From a virus: 38,429 nt of DNA. The translations under genes were made by a program, and so were the position numbers. Below the pieces are notes generated by a model. That model was not told the origin of the DNA and made no database searches. It worked only from the letters and a program-made list of their open reading frames with translations. Below are positions 463 to 29,160 of the stretch, one piece after another (positions within the stretch are counted from its first letter, which is position 1; each line of letters opens with the position of its first letter). The stretch covers positions 1 through 38,429 of IMG/VR virus record IMGVR_UViG_3300020446_001735. One strand, 5' to 3'.

Positions 463-1050
463 ATGGCTAAGAAAAAAAGCATTCACTACGTTAATAATGC
501 TGAATTTTCTCAAGCTGTAGTTGACTACGTTACTATCTGTAACAAAGCCAAAGATGAAAATACAACTGTACCTATTGTACCTGACTATATTGCTCAGTGT
601 TTCTTACGAATCGCTGAAGGCTTGTCTCACAAGTCTAATTTTATTCGCTACACATATCGCGAAGAGATGGTAATGGACGCAGTTGAAAACTGTCTAAAGG
701 CAATCCACAATTATAATTTGGAAGCAGCTACAAGAACAGGCAAGCCTAACGCATTCGCATACTTTACACAGATTACATGGTATGCCTTTTTGCGCAGGAT
801 TTCTCGAGAAAAGAAACAGCAAGACATTAAACTAAGATACCTATCGCGATCCGGCATTGAAAATTTTGTCGACAACGACTTAGGCGATGAAATGAGTCAA
901 CAAGTTGTTGAAGCATTTGTTGATGGCTTAAGAGATCGAATAGATAAAGTAAAGATTCAAGACGAGCAAGTCAAAGAATTTGCTAAAGCAGAAAAGAAAA
1001 GACGAAGAGTCACAAACGTCGATTCTGATTTAAGTGAGTTTATGAAATGA
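463..1050 (+). CDS. 55: RNA polymerase sigma factor for late transcription (gp55)
   Basis: The 195-residue protein matches the T4 gp55 family in length and pattern: an N-terminal YVNNAEF segment and a central helical block with YREEMVMDAVENC and KPNAFAYFTQITWYAF that corresponds to sigma region 2. In T4, gp55 binds host RNA polymerase and recognises TATAAATA late promoters, helped by the sliding clamp. The C-terminus DSDLSEFMK fits the hydrophobic/acidic clamp-binding tail known in gp55. AAGGAGG lies 12 bases before the ATG, a slightly long spacing. Late-promoter matches elsewhere in the window are consistent with its role. Confidence 0.92.
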   Translation: MAKKKSIHYVNNAEFSQAVVDYVTICNKAKDENTTVPIVPDYIAQCFLRIAEGLSHKSNFIRYTYREEMVMDAVENCLKAIHNYNLEAATRTGKPNAFAYFTQITWYAFLRRISREKKQQDIKLRYLSRSGIENFVDNDLGDEMSQQVVEAFVDGLRDRIDKVKIQDEQVKEFAKAEKKRRRVTNVDSDLSEFMK

Positions 1051-5924: not shown

Positions 5925-6297
5925 ATTACTTAATGTTGACTGGTTGATTCGTATCCCGTTATCAATTGTATTTTTACAGCAAGGAGTTAGTAAACTTCCA
6001 TTCAGTGCAGAAGACGCAGCATCTTTTGATTTGCCTGTTCTTGTATGGTTTTTTGTTGTGGCTGGAGAAATAGGAGCTGGAATAGGATTAATTGTAGGTG
6101 GTCTTATTCAAAAACTTTGGAATGGTATTGCTGATATTATAACCAGGTTTAGCGGATTTACAATAGGTTGTATTATGACCGGTGTAATATGGATTAGTCA
6201 GCCGGAAAACTTAATAGATGTTTTGTTGTACGATAACTTACATGTATTTCTTTGGGTTGGCGGGTTATTCTTTGCACTAAAGGGGAATCGTAAATGA
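5908..6297 (+). CDS. DoxX-like integral membrane protein
   Basis: The 129-residue protein has four hydrophobic segments (about residues 10-25, 44-66, 82-97 and 107-123). The first is followed by LQQGVSKL and the second contains [14 protein letters not shown], which resemble the DoxX family of four-helix inner-membrane proteins. DoxX proteins are linked to quinone or thiol redox chemistry in bacteria, but the role here is unknown. It overlaps the end of gene 44 by 17 bases and the start of guaC by 4, so the pair was probably gained together or is at least co-translated. Confidence 0.6.
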
Positions 6298-7412
6298 GAA
6301 TTGAAGAAGACGTAAAATTAGATTATAATGACGTGCTTTTCAGACCGAAAAGATCTACACTTGTTTCCAGAAAAGATGTAGATTTAGATCGTCACTATGA
6401 ATTTGCTAATGGAGAAAAATTTTATAACATCCCAATCATGGCTGCAAACATGGATGGTGTTGGTACATTTGAAATGGCGGATGCTTTGGCTAAGCTAGGC
6501 TTATTTACATGCCTACTTAAATCTTATACCGTTGCGCAATATGTAGATTTCTTTGACACAGATGACAAATGGATAGAAGTACATAAGCTCAATAGACAAC
6601 ACTGTACTGCGTATACTATGGGAATCAGCGATGAAGATCATCAAAAGTTTCGTATGGTATATGAACAAGCACCACAAATCAAATATGTCTGTATTGATGT
6701 GGCGAATGGATACACACAAAGGTTTGCTGAATTTGTAAAACAATTTAGAGATCTTTATCCAAAGATTGTTATCATTGCTGGTAATGTCTGTACAGCAGAC
6801 GCAACTCAAGAATTAATTTTAAATGGAGCAGATATTGTTAAAGTTGGTATTGGACCAGGATCTGTTTGCACTACGCGTATTCAAACGGGTGTTGGTTATC
6901 CTCAGCTTAGTGCTGTTATCGAGTGTGCTGATGCAGCGCATGGCCTCGGAGGTTTTATTATTGCTGATGGCGGTTGCAACTCTGCCGGCGATGTCGCTAA
7001 AGCATTTGGCGCTGGGGCTGACTTCGTTATGCTTGGTGGGATGCTTGCTGGCCACGATGAAGGAGGTGGAGAGATAATTACGAAGTACTTCTCGACCGGT
7101 GAACAGTGGTTCGATAAAAAGAATGAAACGTATAATCCTGTAATTACTAATGACAAGTTTGTACAATTCTACGGAATGAGTTCTGACACAGCGAATGAAA
7201 AACATTTTGGCGGTTTGAAAAATTACCGATCTTCAGAAGGTCGCGATGTTCAAGTTCCATATCGCGGCGGTATAAATAGAACAGTGCAAGATATCCTAGG
7301 TGGTTTACGCTCAACTTGTACATATGTTGGTGCGGCTGGTCTTAAGCAGTTAAGTAAATGCACCACCTTTATTCGTTGTAATGATACTCATAATCGAGTC
7401 TTTGAAAAATGA
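6294..7412 (+). CDS. guaC: GMP reductase
   Basis: The 372-residue TIM-barrel protein starts [20 protein letters not shown], very close to bacterial GuaC (E. coli [20 protein letters not shown]). It has the catalytic-cysteine loop GPGSVCTTR (C192), [14 protein letters not shown] and the GMP reductase-type YRSSEG plus [15 protein letters not shown] near the end. There is no CBS insertion, which argues against IMP dehydrogenase. The enzyme reduces GMP to IMP with NADPH. In a phage it could move guanine nucleotides from degraded host RNA toward adenine nucleotides for an AT-rich genome (inference). It sits between clamp-loader genes 44 and 62, overlapping both neighbours by 4 bases. Confidence 0.93.
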
Positions 7413-8392: not shown

Positions 8393-8517
8393 AAACTTTT
8401 AAGCATTGGTGGAGGAACACTGACAGCATAGAAGTAGTTCTTTTTGCTTCACTAGCATTCTGCATTGGATGGGGCATTTACCAGATAATCATAGGCTTAA
8501 TAGGAAGGTTTGGCTAA
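8389..8517 (+). CDS. 42-residue single-pass membrane protein
   Basis: ATG at 8389 overlaps the previous stop, and TAA at 8515-8517 overlaps the next ATG. The product has a basic Trp-rich head (KTFKHWWRN) followed by one hydrophobic segment (about residues 15-38, VVLFASLAFCIGWGIYQIIIG) and a short basic tail. The function is unknown. The start and stop overlaps at both ends are the main support. Confidence 0.7.
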   Translation: MKTFKHWWRNTDSIEVVLFASLAFCIGWGIYQIIIGLIGRFG

Positions 8518-8879
8518 TGAGAAAGTTTGTATACGATTCTTGGAATAGCATTATGGATCATGATGTTAATCCACTAAAACATATTCCAGATTTAAATACA
8601 CGACATATGGTCATGCAAGTATTAGCTTGGATGTGGTGTATTGTATTTTCATTTTATGTTGGTAGCTTCTGGGTTTTTGGCGTCAGCGCAATTGCACATG
8701 TAATTGTACTTGCTGCTATTGCTATTACTGTAGGTACGTTTGAGGTTGCGAAGCGTAACCCAGAGGTTTTTAGTCTGCGCCCGGGTTATCACTCGGTAAG
8801 TCGCACTAGACAATACATGTGGGTTAATGGCCAAAGGGTTGTGCTTGATGCTAATGATCCTGGCGGCGAGCATGAATAA
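8517..8879 (+). CDS. two-helix membrane protein conserved in marine phages
   Basis: The ATG at 8517 overlaps the preceding TAA and has AGGAAGG upstream; the in-frame ATG at 8469 lies inside the previous gene and is rejected. The 120-residue product starts MRKFVYDSWNSIMDHDVNPLKHIP, a pattern I associate with a family of unknown function in marine T4-like and T7-like phages. Two membrane segments follow (about 33-55 and 58-78), then a soluble tail with Arg and Tyr. The function is unknown. Confidence 0.75.
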   Translation: MRKFVYDSWNSIMDHDVNPLKHIPDLNTRHMVMQVLAWMWCIVFSFYVGSFWVFGVSAIAHVIVLAAIAITVGTFEVAKRNPEVFSLRPGYHSVSRTRQYMWVNGQRVVLDANDPGGEHE

Positions 8880-9164: not shown

Positions 9165-9632
9165 ATGACTGGCACTTTTACGTTCCCACGCGGAGCATTC
9201 GTTGGCTTTGATCACATTGCGAAAGACTTAGAACGTCTTGCACATGCACACCAAAAAGATCATTATCCGCCACATAATGTAGTCAAGCACAATGATGACG
9301 AGTTTCTTATTGAACTCGCTGTCGTTGGATTCAAAGAAAAAGATATCGATATCACGATGCATGATGGTATTCTAACTGTCAAAGGCGATCGTGAGTCACG
9401 TCGAGATCAAAATCTTTATGTCCATAAAGGTATCAGTGGTAGAAAATTCGAGAGGTCATTTAGACTCTCCGAATTTGTAGAAGTCACTGGAGCTGATCTT
9501 GAAGATGGATTGCTTACAATTCACTTGGAGCGAATCATCCCCGAAGAGAAGCGTCCTCGTAAAATTCTAATTGGAAACTACGAGGAAAAAAATGGCAACA
9601 GCAATTCTCAACTACTCACAGAGTCTGATTGA
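9165..9632 (+). CDS. hsp20: small heat-shock protein, Hsp20 family
   Basis: The 155-residue protein has an alpha-crystallin domain at about residues 36-130, with ELAVVGFKEKDIDITMHDGILTV, a KFERSFRL strand and the ADLEDGLLTIHL strand, where canonical members have A.(Y/L)..G.L.I. Small heat-shock proteins hold unfolding proteins, and Hsp20 genes are common in marine T4-like phages. GAGG lies eight bases before the ATG. The last 41 bases overlap the next gene. Other chaperones are not seen in the window. Confidence 0.93.
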   Translation: MTGTFTFPRGAFVGFDHIAKDLERLAHAHQKDHYPPHNVVKHNDDEFLIELAVVGFKEKDIDITMHDGILTVKGDRESRRDQNLYVHKGISGRKFERSFRLSEFVEVTGADLEDGLLTIHLERIIPEEKRPRKILIGNYEEKNGNSNSQLLTESD

Positions 9633-9834: not shown

Positions 9835-9980
9835 TTAAGATGTTCAAACGAATCTTTAGCTTACGTCCTTCGATGTCATGGCAACAAAGAGAAATAGAAA
9901 GATATCTTGCTAACTCGACTGATCATTTTGACTTAGAATGTCGTCAAAAAGATATCATTTACGGAAGGAAAAATTTATGA
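9831..9980 (+). CDS. DUF3563-like small protein
   Basis: The 49-residue product starts in an ATGA overlap and ends overlapping the pseudoazurin ATG. After a basic amphipathic head (KMFKRIFSLRPS) comes EIERYLANSTDHFDLECRQKDI. This resembles DUF3563, a short proteobacterial and phage family with the pattern EEAYLAQAxDxxDLExR. The function of the family is unknown. The assignment rests on this pattern. Confidence 0.65.
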   Translation: MIKMFKRIFSLRPSMSWQQREIERYLANSTDHFDLECRQKDIIYGRKNL

Positions 9981-10411
9981 AAACATTAGCATTTTATCTA
10001 TCAGCATTTGCAGTTATCTTTGCAGTTAGTTCTGCATCAGCAGCTGATCTTACTATTGATATGCTGAATAAAGATGCAGATGGTAACAAAATGGTTTATT
10101 CGAATGAATTGGCTAGAGTAGAAGTAGGTGAAACTATCACTTGGTTACCAGCTTCGAAAGGTCACAATGTCGAATGGATTGCAGGACCTGATGGAGCAGA
10201 TCTTCCTAAAAAGTCTAAGAATGGCAAAGAAGTTTCTATGACTTTTGAAGTACCTGGCATCTATTACTATTGGTGCACACCACATAAAGGCATGGGCATG
10301 ATTGGTCTTGTCGTAGTCGGTGGCGACGTATCTAATAAAGATGCAATTGCTAAAGCAAAAGCCTTAGGTAAATCAAAGAAGAAGCTAAAGGCTCTCTTAG
10401 GAGAACTTTAA
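9977..10411 (+). CDS. pseudoazurin, secreted type-1 copper protein
   Basis: The 144-residue precursor has a signal peptide ending SASA (cleavage after A22). The mature part of 122 residues matches bacterial pseudoazurins (about 123): MLNKDADGNKMV, KGHNVEW and CTPHKGMGMIG. The type-1 copper ligands are H63, C100, H103 and M108, with the family spacing C-x2-H-x4-M. The C-terminal Lys-rich helices after VVVGG are also present. Pseudoazurins shuttle electrons in the periplasm, for example to nitrite or nitrous oxide reductases. In a phage it could redirect host respiration (inference). The start overlaps the upstream DUF3563-like gene and has ACGGAAGGA before the ATG. Confidence 0.93.
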   Translation: MKTLAFYLSAFAVIFAVSSASAADLTIDMLNKDADGNKMVYSNELARVEVGETITWLPASKGHNVEWIAGPDGADLPKKSKNGKEVSMTFEVPGIYYYWCTPHKGMGMIGLVVVGGDVSNKDAIAKAKALGKSKKKLKALLGEL

Positions 10412-20201: not shown

Positions 20202-21018
20202 GAAGATTGCTATCATTGGACATGGCTATGTAGGGAAAGCTGTAGATCATGGCTTTTCCACATCGCATGTTGAAAAGTTTTTGGTGGATCCAATTTATGG
20301 TTCTACCATTGGTGATCTTAAACTTAAAACTCGTTTGGACGCAGCATTTGTTTGCGTTCCGACACCATTCGGAGATGATGGAAGTATTGATGCCTCGATT
20401 GTAAAAGAAGTTGTGACAGAGCTTCAATACTTTAATTGTCCTATTATCATCAAGTCGACAGTGACTCCTGATATTGTAAGTGAACTTTATAATGAAGACT
20501 CGAATGTTGTTTACAATCCGGAGTTTCTAACCGAAGCAAATGCTCTTGATGATTTTATTAATCCTTCTATGCATATCTTTGGAGGTAACATTATGATTAC
20601 TCGTAGAGTTCAAGAACTTTACGAAAATCACAGTCAGTGTCGTCCTTGTCCTGTCAGGCATATGACTCCTGCTGAAGCGAGCTTTGTTAAGTATGGAATC
20701 AATAGTTTTCTAGCTACAAAAGTTCTATGGTTCAACCAATTTAAAGATGTGGTGGATCAACATGATTCAAAATACAATGTGGTTGTAAATGCCATGAGCA
20801 TGGATCCACGTATTTCTACTTCGCATATGCAGGTGCCAGGACCTGATGGTAAAAAAGGATTTGGCGGAGCATGCTTCCCCAAAGACACTAACGCCTTTTC
20901 TACTTTCTCTCAAAATGCTTTCACTGTTCTAGATGAAGTGATTAGTGCCAATAATACATATAGAAAAGAATATGATCTAGACCACAGAGAAATTGAACAG
21001 AAAGTAAATTATGGCTAA
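20191..21018 (+). CDS. minimal UDP-glucose 6-dehydrogenase
   Basis: The 275-residue protein has the UGD signatures in order: GHGYVG (10-15), FVCVPTP (53-59), STVTP (89-93), NPEFLTEANALDDF (109-122), FVKYGINSF with K167 and N171, and GGACFPKD with catalytic C228. It ends about 30 residues after that cysteine, so the whole C-terminal UDP-binding domain (about 130 residues in usual 390-450 residue enzymes) is absent, and the N-terminal Rossmann part is shortened too. All core catalytic residues remain. AAGGAG precedes the ATG, which lies inside the epimerase end. The product would be UDP-glucuronate. Confidence 0.85.
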   Translation: MSIKKIAIIGHGYVGKAVDHGFSTSHVEKFLVDPIYGSTIGDLKLKTRLDAAFVCVPTPFGDDGSIDASIVKEVVTELQYFNCPIIIKSTVTPDIVSELYNEDSNVVYNPEFLTEANALDDFINPSMHIFGGNIMITRRVQELYENHSQCRPCPVRHMTPAEASFVKYGINSFLATKVLWFNQFKDVVDQHDSKYNVVVNAMSMDPRISTSHMQVPGPDGKKGFGGACFPKDTNAFSTFSQNAFTVLDEVISANNTYRKEYDLDHREIEQKVNYG

Positions 21019-22210
21019 CTACGCAAGTATTGTTCCTCTAATCGGAGGAGAAACAATAGCAATGCAAAATGTATTCGGGTCTCGGCCCGAATACATTCTG
21101 TCTTACGAAGGATTTGAAAACAATGATCAACACTTGGTGGAATACTATAAGAGAGAAGTTCCCTACCATCTTATTCAAGGTGATTCTTTACCTCAGGTTG
21201 AGTCTGTTGATGTCATTAATACTGTTTGCCCTTGCGCTGGGCTTAGCAGTCTTAGTGTCACAAGCTCTTCTGACGCTGCTGCTAATGATTGGATGCGTAC
21301 CAGTGCTCGTCATGTACTCGGTCATCTACGGCCCAAGGTCTTTTGGGGAGAAAATGCACCACGACTTGCTTCAAAAATGGGAGAACCAGTCGTGGAAGAT
21401 CTTCGAAAGATCGGAAGAGAAAATGGCTACACTTTTAGCATCTTTAAAACAAAAAGTATCCTTCATGGATTATCTCAAGTAAGAGATCGTACTTTTTATT
21501 TTTTCTGGAAAGGCGAAAAGGTACCACAATTTGAATATATAAAACGTGAGCATGAAACGATCGAGGATACGATTCGCTCCGTGAAGCGGGATCCAAGTGA
21601 TCCAATGAACATCCTAACGTCTGATCGTGCTCCGTCACAAGATCCATATTATAGGTACGTTCTCGAAGAAATGGAGAACGGCATTAATCACAGCGCGTTT
21701 CAAGATAAACTTGAAAAAAGCTATGATGTGAAGCACTACATTGAAGACAATGGAGTTACCTATGACAAAGTATCTAAATGGATGTCAAAGCATGGCTACG
21801 AGAAACAAGCTTCTCGTTGTATGGACATGTATCATAAATTAAAGAGTGGTGGTAATATTATGCGTCGTGGTGTCAATATTCCAAAAGGCTACATTGGAGC
21901 TTTTGTTGGCGCATATCCTATGACACTGACTCATCCGGATGAAGATAGATTTCTAACATTGAGAGAATGCTTATCAATTATGAAACTGCCTGAAGATTTT
22001 ATTCTTCAAGGTGGACTAAAAAATATCAATCACATCTGTCAGAACGTGCCAGTAACGACAGCACAGGACATGGCAGATCATGTACTTCGTTATGTTGATG
22101 GAAGATTAGATAACCAACTAATCGATACCGATTATCTCGTACAAGACAACAAGTCTCAAACGCTTTCTTATGAAAAAGAGAGTGTACAACTTGACGCATT
22201 TATGGTATAA
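21011..22210 (+). CDS. cytosine-C5 DNA methyltransferase homologue
   Basis: The 399-residue protein keeps the C5-methyltransferase motifs CPCAGLS (motif IV, catalytic C75), GENAPR (motif VI) and QVRDRTFYFF (motif VIII). Motif I, normally DLFAGxGG, is replaced by IVPLIGGET, so cofactor binding may be altered. There is a long central target-recognition region (about 190-290) and a C-terminal motif IX/X part. It ends VQLDAFMV, similar to the gp43 clamp tail. The ATG at 21011 overlaps UGD; an ATG at 21062 behind GGAGGAG would remove motif I. Its substrate in a hydroxymethylcytosine phage is unclear. Confidence 0.82.
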   Translation: MANYASIVPLIGGETIAMQNVFGSRPEYILSYEGFENNDQHLVEYYKREVPYHLIQGDSLPQVESVDVINTVCPCAGLSSLSVTSSSDAAANDWMRTSARHVLGHLRPKVFWGENAPRLASKMGEPVVEDLRKIGRENGYTFSIFKTKSILHGLSQVRDRTFYFFWKGEKVPQFEYIKREHETIEDTIRSVKRDPSDPMNILTSDRAPSQDPYYRYVLEEMENGINHSAFQDKLEKSYDVKHYIEDNGVTYDKVSKWMSKHGYEKQASRCMDMYHKLKSGGNIMRRGVNIPKGYIGAFVGAYPMTLTHPDEDRFLTLRECLSIMKLPEDFILQGGLKNINHICQNVPVTTAQDMADHVLRYVDGRLDNQLIDTDYLVQDNKSQTLSYEKESVQLDAFMV

Positions 22211-27958: not shown

Positions 27959-28296
27959 TTATTATTCCTCATTGCATCTTCGATACTTTCTAGCATTTCT
28001 TGTATCATTGGTGCTTGTTTATTTGGTTCATAAATGCATCGCATCGATGGTGGACAATGTTCAAATCTACTTATAAACACAGTATCAGTTGTTTTATTTG
28101 GTCCTTGGTAAAGACAAATCTTTTGTGTAAGAACTATCTTCTTTTTTGCTAAACGACAGGTTACATATATTTTATCTTTTTCTTTTTCCTTGTACATTCT
28201 ACCTTCAGACCATGCTTCCTCAGGTATAATAAAAAGACAAAACAAAAGAGCAAATAGAATTAGTAATGTGTTGCCGATCCTAACATACCATTTCAT
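27955..28296 (-). CDS. hypothetical membrane-anchored or secreted protein
   Basis: The 113-residue product has one N-terminal hydrophobic segment (about residues 7-24, IGNTLLILFALLFCLFII), followed by a basic, four-Cys soluble part (TCRLAK, KICLYQ, HCPPSMRC). It could be a signal anchor with a periplasmic disulfide domain. The family is not recognised. ATGA overlaps join it to both neighbours. Confidence 0.7.
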   Translation of the reverse strand: MKWYVRIGNTLLILFALLFCLFIIPEEAWSEGRMYKEKEKDKIYVTCRLAKKKIVLTQKICLYQGPNKTTDTVFISRFEHCPPSMRCIYEPNKQAPMIQEMLESIEDAMRNNK

Positions 28297-28778
28297 ATTT
28301 GGCCAGTTCTAGCTGCATACACCAGCCAAACAAATGATAAAATAACTGCGCCAAATACAAGTGTAAGGAAACCAATTGCTACGCCTTCAATAAATTTCTT
28401 TCTTCTTTGTGCCTGCTTATAAATTGTTTCTTGCCTTTGCTTTCTGATTTGAGCTTCCATACGAATAAGCTCGTCCCAGTGAGATGCACCATATGTAAAC
28501 CCGATAAAGTTCTTCAGATCTTGTCGCATTTGATCTGCTTTTTTCTTAGCAGCAAAGATCTCCATTGCTTCTTGTTCGATTGAACCTTTGAATGCTAGCT
28601 TCTTGAATAGAGGAGGATTCTTTGCTTGGCGCTCAGCTTCTGATAAATCAGACATGGCATTCATCCACCGGCCGAGATCACTCGCCATGGACTCAATATC
28701 TCTTCCGATCTGAAATCCTTTTTTCAGAACGTTAAATGCTGCAGTTGCAGTTGCTAATGCGCTAACGGGATCTACCAT
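28293..28778 (-). CDS. hypothetical protein with C-terminal membrane anchor
   Basis: The 161-residue product is a long helical, charged body (residues 20-130, with QKQRQETIYKQAQRRKK-like repeats of basic residues) ending in one membrane segment (about 133-156, GFLTLVFGAVILSFVWLVYAA). It starts after CTAGGAGGGCTC, a strong ribosome site. As first gene of the minus-strand operon, it follows a TATAAATA late promoter. Homologues of this shape occur in marine T4-like phages without known function. Confidence 0.75.
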   Translation of the reverse strand: MVDPVSALATATAAFNVLKKGFQIGRDIESMASDLGRWMNAMSDLSEAERQAKNPPLFKKLAFKGSIEQEAMEIFAAKKKADQMRQDLKNFIGFTYGASHWDELIRMEAQIRKQRQETIYKQAQRRKKFIEGVAIGFLTLVFGAVILSFVWLVYAARTGQI

Positions 28779-28839
28779 GAGCCCTCCTAGTCCGAGTTCT
28801 CATAATAAGATTCAAAGATTGATAAAGCTCACTCATAAC

Positions 28840-28847
28840 TATTTATA
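28840..28847 (-). promoter_or_regulatory. T4-type late promoter for the minus-strand operon
   Basis: The minus strand reads TATAAATA exactly here, 62 bases upstream of the first minus-strand ATG (28778). gp55 is encoded in the window. It lies back to back with the tmRNA promoter. Confidence 0.75.
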
Positions 28848-28855
28848 TTTTTTTG

Positions 28856-28891
28856 TTTACATAGCAATTTATTTGTGGTAGAATATAAATA
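28856..28891 (+). promoter_or_regulatory. overlapping early and late promoters of the tmRNA
   Basis: TTTACA (28856-28861), 17 bases ending TGG, and TAGAAT (28879-28884) form a sigma70-type promoter. The exact late octamer TATAAATA occupies 28884-28891, directly overlapping the -10. The RNA could thus be made both early and late. Confidence 0.75.
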
Positions 28892-29142
28892 CAAATGAAG
28901 ATGTTAGAAGGTAGACAGGACCCGGGGGCGGTACCCGGCGCCTCCACCATAATTACTAGGAACAATAAATGCTGCTTAAATTTTACTTCTGGCCTTTTCT
29001 AGTAATTATGTGGGGGCGAAATAGGATCGACTGGTGCTTGAGTCTTCGAAAAAGTAACTGCAAACGATAATTTTGCACCTGTAGATTATCGCCTCGCGGC
29101 GTAAACTACCGGGCCCGGTGGAGCCTCGGAACAGAATCCACC
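28892..29142 (+). ncRNA. ssrA: circularly permuted (two-piece) tmRNA
   Basis: The acceptor piece comes first and ends CGCCTCCACCA (CCA at 28947-28949); the coding piece starts GGGGGCG at 29012. These pair as a 7-bp acceptor stem with one G-U. The linker 28948-29010 is closed by a perfect 12-bp inverted repeat (CATAATTACTAG with CTAGTAATTATG), as expected of a processed loop. The coding piece continues AGGATCGACTGG and has resume codon GCA at 29060, with tag ANDNFAPVDYRLAA and TAA at 29102-29104. A GGTGGA/TCCACC hairpin (29117-29142) ends it. The permuted layout and ANDN...LAA tag are alphaproteobacterial. tmRNA with SmpB rescues stalled ribosomes. The T-loop reads GGCGGTA rather than TTCRANN. 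Ends are approximate. Confidence 0.92.
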
Positions 29143-29160
29143 AACTTAAAGGAGATATAA

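Follow-up and report, generated by a model that had tools for sequence, protein, structure and literature searches.

The window analysed here comprises the entire record, 38,429 bases long, of a marine virus of bacteria and most probably encodes a working two-piece phage tmRNA built around an exchangeable segment, which in many relatives carries the gene of a small phage protein. Two-piece tmRNAs are cut by tRNA enzymes, charged with alanine, used together with SmpB, and tag proteins for proteolysis, and we propose the following course for the window gene. A host-type promoter would drive transcription early and a phage late promoter later on, the late transcript starting with the first base of the acceptor piece; processing of the tRNA type would cut after CCA and before GGGGG, the segment would be discarded, and the two pieces would pair via their acceptor and H2 stems. 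The G-U at the third acceptor pair would bring about charging with alanine, the RNA would bind the SmpB of the host (the phage itself yielded none) and rescue stalled ribosomes by trans-translation, and the tag added, ending in LAA, would direct the products to host proteolysis. Since the segment is predicted to be thrown away and lies between two stretches of high conservation, it could be exchanged without harm to the tmRNA, the likely route being homologous recombination through these flanks (a UvsX-like recombinase is encoded in the window), and the genes carried in it would be expressed.

Identity and anatomy of the window gene

The original prediction had placed a circularly permuted tmRNA of alphaproteobacterial type at 28856-29142 and had named the alpha_tmRNA model of Rfam as a check. 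A cmscan search of the window with Rfam returned RF01849 (alpha_tmRNA) at 28831-29146 on the plus strand, with a score of 95.4 bits (E-value 6.2e-25; gathering score 50) and a match over the full length of the model (1-355). The only other Rfam match over threshold in the 38,429 bases was to RF04321 (tmRNA_permuted) at 28897-29104, with 78.2 bits versus a gathering score of 47. ARAGORN, run on the window, reported no tmRNA gene. The order of the parts is permuted, in that the acceptor 3' strand (28918-28949) precedes the 5' strand (from 29012) and the intervening segment lies between them. The parts of the gene and its divergent neighbour are:

28293..28778 (-): divergent neighbour gene of unknown function (phrog_32327)
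28897..28949 (+): acceptor piece of the tmRNA, comprising H2 3' strand GAAGAT, T-arm, acceptor 3' strand and CCACCA
28918-28949 (+): T-arm and acceptor 3' strand, ending in CCACCA, read from the sequence
28950..29011 (+): intervening segment of 62 nt, hairpin-closed, predicted to be removed, exchangeable as judged from sequence, folding and relatives
29012..29146 (+): mRNA piece, comprising acceptor 5' strand GGGGGCG, H2 5' strand GTCTTC, tag frame and 3' hairpin
29060..29104 (+): tag reading frame ANDNFAPVDYRLAA and stop, read from the sequence
29117-29142 (+): 3' hairpin GGTGGA/TCCACC, read from the sequence

The acceptor helix has seven pairs, the third of which is G-U; a G3-U70 acceptor pair is an alanine identity element. 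The hairpin that closes the segment has 12 pairs counted from the CA of the CCA end, with CAUAAUUACUAG pairing with CUAGUAAUUAUG, and the tag ANDNFAPVDYRLAA is followed by a stop codon at 29102-29104. The acceptor piece, the 12-bp hairpin, the 7-bp acceptor pairing and the tag, all named in the original prediction, are accordingly legible in the window. Its starting position of 28856 has to be amended, as this is the -35-like hexamer of a promoter-like site and not an RNA start; the likely 5' end of the RNA is 28897.

Folding and comparison with relatives agree with this anatomy. Only 3 of 200 shuffles beat or equalled the fold of 28897-29146 (z -2.62), and in an alignment of 35 genes of the window's type all seven acceptor pairs and all five T-stem pairs form in every gene, with up to four pair types in the T-stem. 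One H2 pair covaries (A-U in 27 of the 35, U-A in 6). The third acceptor pair is G-U in 35/35, although it was fixed by the pattern for those genes that were fetched by their T-arm. Support for the window gene as a two-piece tmRNA is far beyond chance, and the Rfam scores, the strand order, the acceptor pairs and the pairing conserved in 35 relatives bear out the claim of a circularly permuted alpha-type gene; the gene is a real and probably functional phage tmRNA.

That the gene sits in a phage, as had been proposed, is confirmed by the T4-type clamp, late sigma factor, UvsX-like recombinase and DnaB-like helicase encoded in the window, which is probably a fragment of a T4-like genome. Pointers to the host differ: the product of the divergent neighbour (28293-28778) has its closest relatives, at 50-51%, in Roseobacter phages CRP-1, CRP-2 and CRP-9, whereas the polymerase points to phage C48C1 and cyanophages. 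The window also encodes an IMP dehydrogenase/GMP reductase domain (6294-7412), an Hsp20 (9165-9632), a plastocyanin/azurin-type copper protein (9938-10411), a C5 cytosine methylase (21011-22210) and an iron-sulphur cluster biosynthesis protein (Pfam PF01521; 27653-27958, minus strand).

The intervening segment and the genes carried in it

For comparison we fetched viral contigs by a T-arm pattern (at least 119) and by a short TCGAC-tag spacer pattern (at least 119), and three further patterns chose long segments (21, 18 and 1 stretches, with some loci in common). From these, 215 genes were parsed, 169 of them unique, with the window (L001) and one MAG contig (L121) included. Because the loci were selected by patterns, three of them aimed at long segments, the share of long segments in this set is not a prevalence, and genes whose T-arm or 5' piece falls outside the patterns are left out of it. 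Phage records yielded few relatives: when 50,697 of them were searched by blastn with the window gene, the sole match was one of 34 bases, in Rhodobacter phage RcRudolph, and L173, of the next spacer type, had no match in phage records. A composite mRNA-piece query at E-values up to 5 matched 54 phage records, mostly Streptomyces phages with a tmRNA type of their own, and also two Rhodobacter phages. In the RcRudolph record the annotation of a hypothetical protein, RCRUDOLPH_61, runs across a permuted tmRNA (L244 1427-1762; OP009285.1 49133-49468) that is itself unannotated, and RcSimone-Hastad has a similar RNA, likewise unannotated. Since ARAGORN missed the window's gene and two Rhodobacter phage records leave theirs unannotated, tmRNA genes of this kind are easily missed.

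The window and phage contig L057 share 198 of 201 bases of the mature RNA (63/65 in the acceptor piece and 135/136 in the mRNA piece), and their flanks are also alike (412/432 for 400 bases upstream together with the acceptor piece, 542/600 for 600 bases downstream). Their segments, 62 versus 110 nt long, are without clear likeness (44 matches in a gapped global alignment). The same was seen more widely in an ungapped comparison, made between stretches of equal length and covering the 30 nt that precede the T-arm, the acceptor strand, and 150 nt counted from the 5' piece: 73 pairs of unique genes have at least 93% identity over the compared mature stretch and segments that differ in length by at least 20 nt. 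Two of the pairs are identical over that stretch and have segments of 24 and 151 nt (L154/L209) or of 30 and 68 nt (L013/L096). Likeness in the compared pairs ends at the ends of the mature RNA, and on these alignments we read the intervening segment as a swap slot. Among the 131 segments that are at least 30 nt long, when pairs were counted strictly from the CA up to the first break, 58 have a closing stem of at least 8 pairs, versus 9.5% in mixed-arm controls, and 42 have one of just 2; a closing hairpin as clear as the window's is not seen in every relative.

Longer segments in the relatives carry open reading frames. An ORF that takes up 60% or more of its segment was present in 22/22 distinct segments of 180-400 nt (shuffle mean 1.8), 19/19 of 130-180 nt (4.8) and 26/36 of 90-130 nt (11.5), so that all 41 distinct segments of at least 130 nt carry one, versus about 7 in shuffles. 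Shorter segments fell below their shuffles, with 9/30 versus 14.6 at 60-90 nt and 4/40 versus 19.0 at 20-60 nt. Many of these ORFs fall into families while others are single, and some families span different tmRNA types; counted in unique genes, family F1 has 20 members (in three spacer groups), F9 has 7, F3 and F5 have 5 each, F4 has 4, and there are smaller ones. Two loci (L151 and L196) hold two overlapping ORFs, of F5b and F5, within a 388-nt segment. The RNA around such segments is still recognisable: tmRNA_permuted matched 18 of 18 segment-carrying records, 16 of them over the cut-off, both records with the 388-nt segment scoring below it.

Changes in these families are distributed as in coding sequence. 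By first, second and third codon position they number 50, 27 and 161 in F5, 559, 267 and 908 in F1, 44, 55 and 113 in F3, and 61, 40 and 95 in F4, and third positions are the most changed in every family with more than one change. Pairwise pN/pS was 0.05-0.18 in F5, 0.03-0.31 in F5b, 0.22-0.36 in F2, 0.25-0.38 in F4, 0.31 in F12, 0.15 in F6, 0.08-0.22 in the F9 pairs listed and 0.32-0.48 in the six most different F1 pairs. The six F3 pairs listed range from 0.26 to 1.0, the single value of 1.0 resting on few changes, and F7 and F8, with one non-synonymous change each, are uninformative. These ratios come from a simple pairwise count, near synonymous saturation in distant pairs and with the RNA stem constraining the ends, and they used 13 of 20 members of F1, 4 of 5 of F5, 3 of 4 of F4, 6 of 7 of F9 and 3 of 4 of the F5b cluster. 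Within those bounds, the substitution patterns show several families of segment ORFs in relatives to be under purifying selection.

Some of the carried genes also occur by themselves. With stand-alone defined as having no tmRNA 5' piece within 330 nt downstream, homologues were found for F12 (22 places, 10 of them listed), F7 (6), F2 (3), F4 (3) and F5b (2, weak), and the same search gave none for F1, F3, F5, F6, F8, F10, F13, F14 and F15. Two F9 candidates were discounted, since the 5' piece is a variant one in L043, which is a tmRNA gene, and is missing from L048, which does have the T-arm. When segment proteins were compared with phage records by tblastn, F1 and F4 had no match and F3 matched 11 records (best E-value 7e-4); among ten segment proteins compared with PHROGs only F3 had matches below an E-value of 0.001, to a family of unknown function, and none of ten compared with Pfam passed a cut-off. 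We make no claim that carried genes are confined to phages, because the cellular controls are few (three genes and the Rfam consensus).

Long ORFs are present in 72 of the 82 unique genes with segments of at least 90 nt, and by a simple test 29 of the 72 have a Shine-Dalgarno-like stretch. While 35 stop inside the segment, 37 run on into the mature piece, which is awkward for an ordinary gene. An ORF with no inner stop would, once the RNA is cut, lie on a stop-less mRNA, and this opens the way for putative self-tagging: the segment could be a dedicated slot for microproteins swapped by recombination, in which the product of the released stop-less mRNA is tagged by the same tmRNA so that making the tmRNA would limit the microprotein, as a viral analogue of the ArfA circuit. 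We hold this elaboration to be unlikely.

At the other extreme, the segment could be neutral filler in a phage tmRNA that is otherwise ordinary, and relatives would have their ORFs by chance or as leftovers. Filler would fit the segments below 90 nt with their lack of ORF excess, the two Rhodobacter phages (in the 98-nt segment of RcRudolph and the 97-nt segment of RcSimone-Hastad the reading frames disagree and are not coding-like) and possibly the window itself. It does not fit the long ORFs in 41/41 distinct segments of 130 nt or more, the codon-position pattern with pN/pS below 0.4 in several families, or the families that are found both free-standing and in different tmRNA types, and we regard it as improbable.

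In the window itself the exchangeable segment may hold a carried gene in reduced form:

28969..29070 (+): possible micro-ORF MLLKFYFWPFLVIM, 14 codons in the segment and open to 29070, with an ATG after AGGA

Its first 10 codons resemble a 27-codon ORF, MLFKFYFWPFEAIRSVSQLSKKRSSNQ, of phage contigs L236 and L237, and viral_contigs has 2 stretches that match a degenerate pattern made for its start, with one and the same sequence in both where printed. The MLFKFYFWPFEAIRSVSQLSKKRSSNQ ORF lies after a gene that by eye is related to window 8469-8879, and one of the two contigs has a permuted tmRNA of its own about 0.9 kb upstream. This one independent comparison suggests that the window segment holds a short copy of a phage gene, of which the ORF may be a remnant; since segments below 90 nt show no ORF excess, statistics lend no support to the window's ORF by itself. 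The window is a plain member with a small insert, and the main interest is in its relatives. As to the protein of 8469-8879, it is membrane-like and is encoded far from the tmRNA in the window, and what are by eye its relatives adjoin or soon follow the tmRNA in L051 and L237.

Tags, promoters and the compact form

Among 155 parsed tags, the C-terminal end is LAA in 125, IAA in 10, AAA in 7, QAA in 6, AVA in 3 and something else in 4, and 152 begin with ANDN, a start that the short-spacer search patterns required. The window's tag was found in one other unique gene of the set, that of L057. The LAA end shared with 125/155 argues, at the level of sequence, for a degradation signal that is kept and not changed. 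Tags of another kind were also seen: permuted tmRNAs on eleven other viral contigs (L014, L015, L023, L029, L068, L070, L079, L080, L107, L110 and L114) have a tag, ANDNALSNVTFVDFSAPVTAVNEDFALAA, that at 29 residues is roughly double the usual length, and the permuted tmRNA-like genes of L016 and L018 have tags that our script left unparsed, apparently without an ANDN start.

The tags bear on whether the phage RNA could be a decoy, which would be charged and bind SmpB and ribosomes in order to block host trans-translation. A precedent is given in the account of mycobacteriophage DS6A, whose CDS-less tmRNA inhibits endogenous tmRNA in E. coli (PMC11915505), and SmpB was found in 0 of 30 phage records of 32-216 kb (their completeness not given), as a decoy would allow. 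A decoy needs no tag, however, and here the tag frame is intact and the tag ends are conserved, so we think such a role quite unlikely and prefer a tmRNA that works in tagging.

Upstream of the gene, and elsewhere in the window, we located the following elements:

463..1050 (+): late sigma factor (gp55-like), expected reader of TATAAATA (phrog_234, E-value 1e-51)
28840..28847 (-): TATAAATA on the opposite strand, a possible divergent late promoter for the 28293-28778 gene, by motif
28856..28884 (+): sigma-70-like promoter, TTTACA, 17 nt, TAGAAT after TG (extended -10), by motif search
28884..28891 (+): T4-type late promoter TATAAATA, expected +1 near 28897, by motif search

The sigma-70-like site is weak taken alone (1 found in the window versus a shuffle mean of 1.8), but TGnTA[TG]AAT is present upstream of 35 of 44 genes of the window's type against a background of 0.009 per 50 nt; in the other spacer types the extended -10 was found in 24/36 (the next type), 2/29, 2/43 and 0/13. 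As to TATAAATA, the window has 7 copies versus a shuffle mean of 2.7, and of 165 unique genes, 128 have the exact motif in the 60 nt that precede the T-arm, where 0.0085 per gene would be expected; among the 44 window-type genes it is found in 33, all within three positions. A motif at a fixed distance together with a gp55-like sigma factor characterises this site as a putative T4-type late promoter. A late transcript would start at 28897, where H2 begins, and its 5' end would then not have to be trimmed. The two promoter motifs overlap upstream of the tmRNA, and the motifs suggest that it is expressed in both early and late phases; such overlap offers a prediction of when these phages need ribosome rescue.

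The window's type is also compact. H2, which is GAAGAU with GUCUUC and shows changes from A-U to U-A, is followed by the resume codon after 11-12 nt in the 35 aligned genes, which leaves no space for the pseudoknot PK1, and PK1 was found before the resume codon in none of the 35. This pseudoknot is usual in that position in two-piece tmRNA, and is absent from the Rfam pairings shown. Phage tmRNAs that lack PK1 and are otherwise complete bear on the purpose of that pseudoknot. Measured from TCGAC to TGC, the spacer is 27 nt in the window and about 63 in the Rfam consensus; across the 169 unique genes it is at most 30 nt in 45, 31-40 in 36, 41-50 in 30 and over 50 in 45, with 13 unparsed. As cellular controls we took 8 alphaproteobacterial plasmid records that share the T-arm stretch, of which 4 were examined and three were parsed (Bosea was not); these three genes, on large replicons, have spacers of 63, 122 and 63 nt and segments of 34, 83 and 30 nt, and the consensus segment, from the Rfam alignment, is about 28 nt.

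A pattern for short spacers allowed 18-48 nt; as it fixed the start of the tag to AND N(F/Y)A, and the acceptor in part, it may overlook cellular genes whose tags differ. In genome_contigs 1 stretch matched this pattern, in viral_contigs at least 119 did, and the short-spacer type thus circulates among phages. The sole match in genome_contigs is an 8.2-kb Opitutia MAG contig (L121; NZKY01000164.1) with a short-spacer tmRNA that carries an F2 gene; by eye its ORFs look viral, and it is probably misbinned. That the window phage alone recently captured a host ssrA, in the spirit of the acquisition from a host first envisaged, is very improbable, for while the alpha-type model fits best and the T-arm stretch is common to alphaproteobacterial replicons, these counts, the near-identical gene with like flanks in L057 and the distance of a 27-nt spacer from cellular ones leave acquisition as a recent event unsupported. 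What circulates is in our reading a two-piece tmRNA with an exchangeable segment, and this suggests that protein genes may dock in a part of a structured RNA gene that is discarded.

Comparison with known systems

A permuted tmRNA in a phage is of a known kind, since such genes are already described in PMC9004378 and PMC11915505. Buchholz et al. (2022, PMC9004378) described Methylophilales phage Melnitz as carrying a two-piece tmRNA of the alpha type, and in 18,146 phage genomes counted 133 unique tmRNA structures, 53 of them two-piece and 50 of these marine or aquatic; in the 2025 paper on the tmRNA database, the unique phage tmRNAs number 79 over all forms (PMC11915505). The class itself is thus known, and what is new, as far as our literature searches reach, is the compact form, the overlapping promoters and the gene-carrying segment. 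Protein genes in a tmRNA intervening segment were the subject of no report that we found in the titles and abstract openings of the open-access literature.

Melnitz resembles the window in having its alpha-type two-piece tmRNA in a T4-like marine myophage (PMC9004378). Buchholz et al. noted an early promoter before the Melnitz tmRNA and argued for early expression, and for Melnitz and Pelagibacter phage Mosig a glutamine riboswitch is described along with the early promoter, whereas the window has an overlapping late promoter (PMC9004378). A search of the window at gathering scores found no glutamine riboswitch, and around the gene none appeared at E-values up to 5. The descriptions of Melnitz and Mosig, with which we compare rather than with the genomes, mention no segment genes (PMC9004378).

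With the alpha_tmRNA of Alphaproteobacteria the window gene shares the permuted order, the T-loop, the G-U at pair 3 and an intervening segment, as well as the ANDN tag and the 3' hairpin with AACAGAA; it differs in a shorter spacer without room for PK1, a T4-type late promoter and an exchangeable segment. The tmRNA of mycobacteriophage DS6A is likewise phage-borne but has no tag frame, in contrast to the conserved tag of the window's type (PMC11915505). Cargo has been described in PMC11915505 as a tRNA-Ala gene in the intervening sequence of a nominally archaeal gene and a repetitive element in another permuted gene. These are single cases of an RNA or a repeat, whereas the phage set presented here has recurring protein-coding families.
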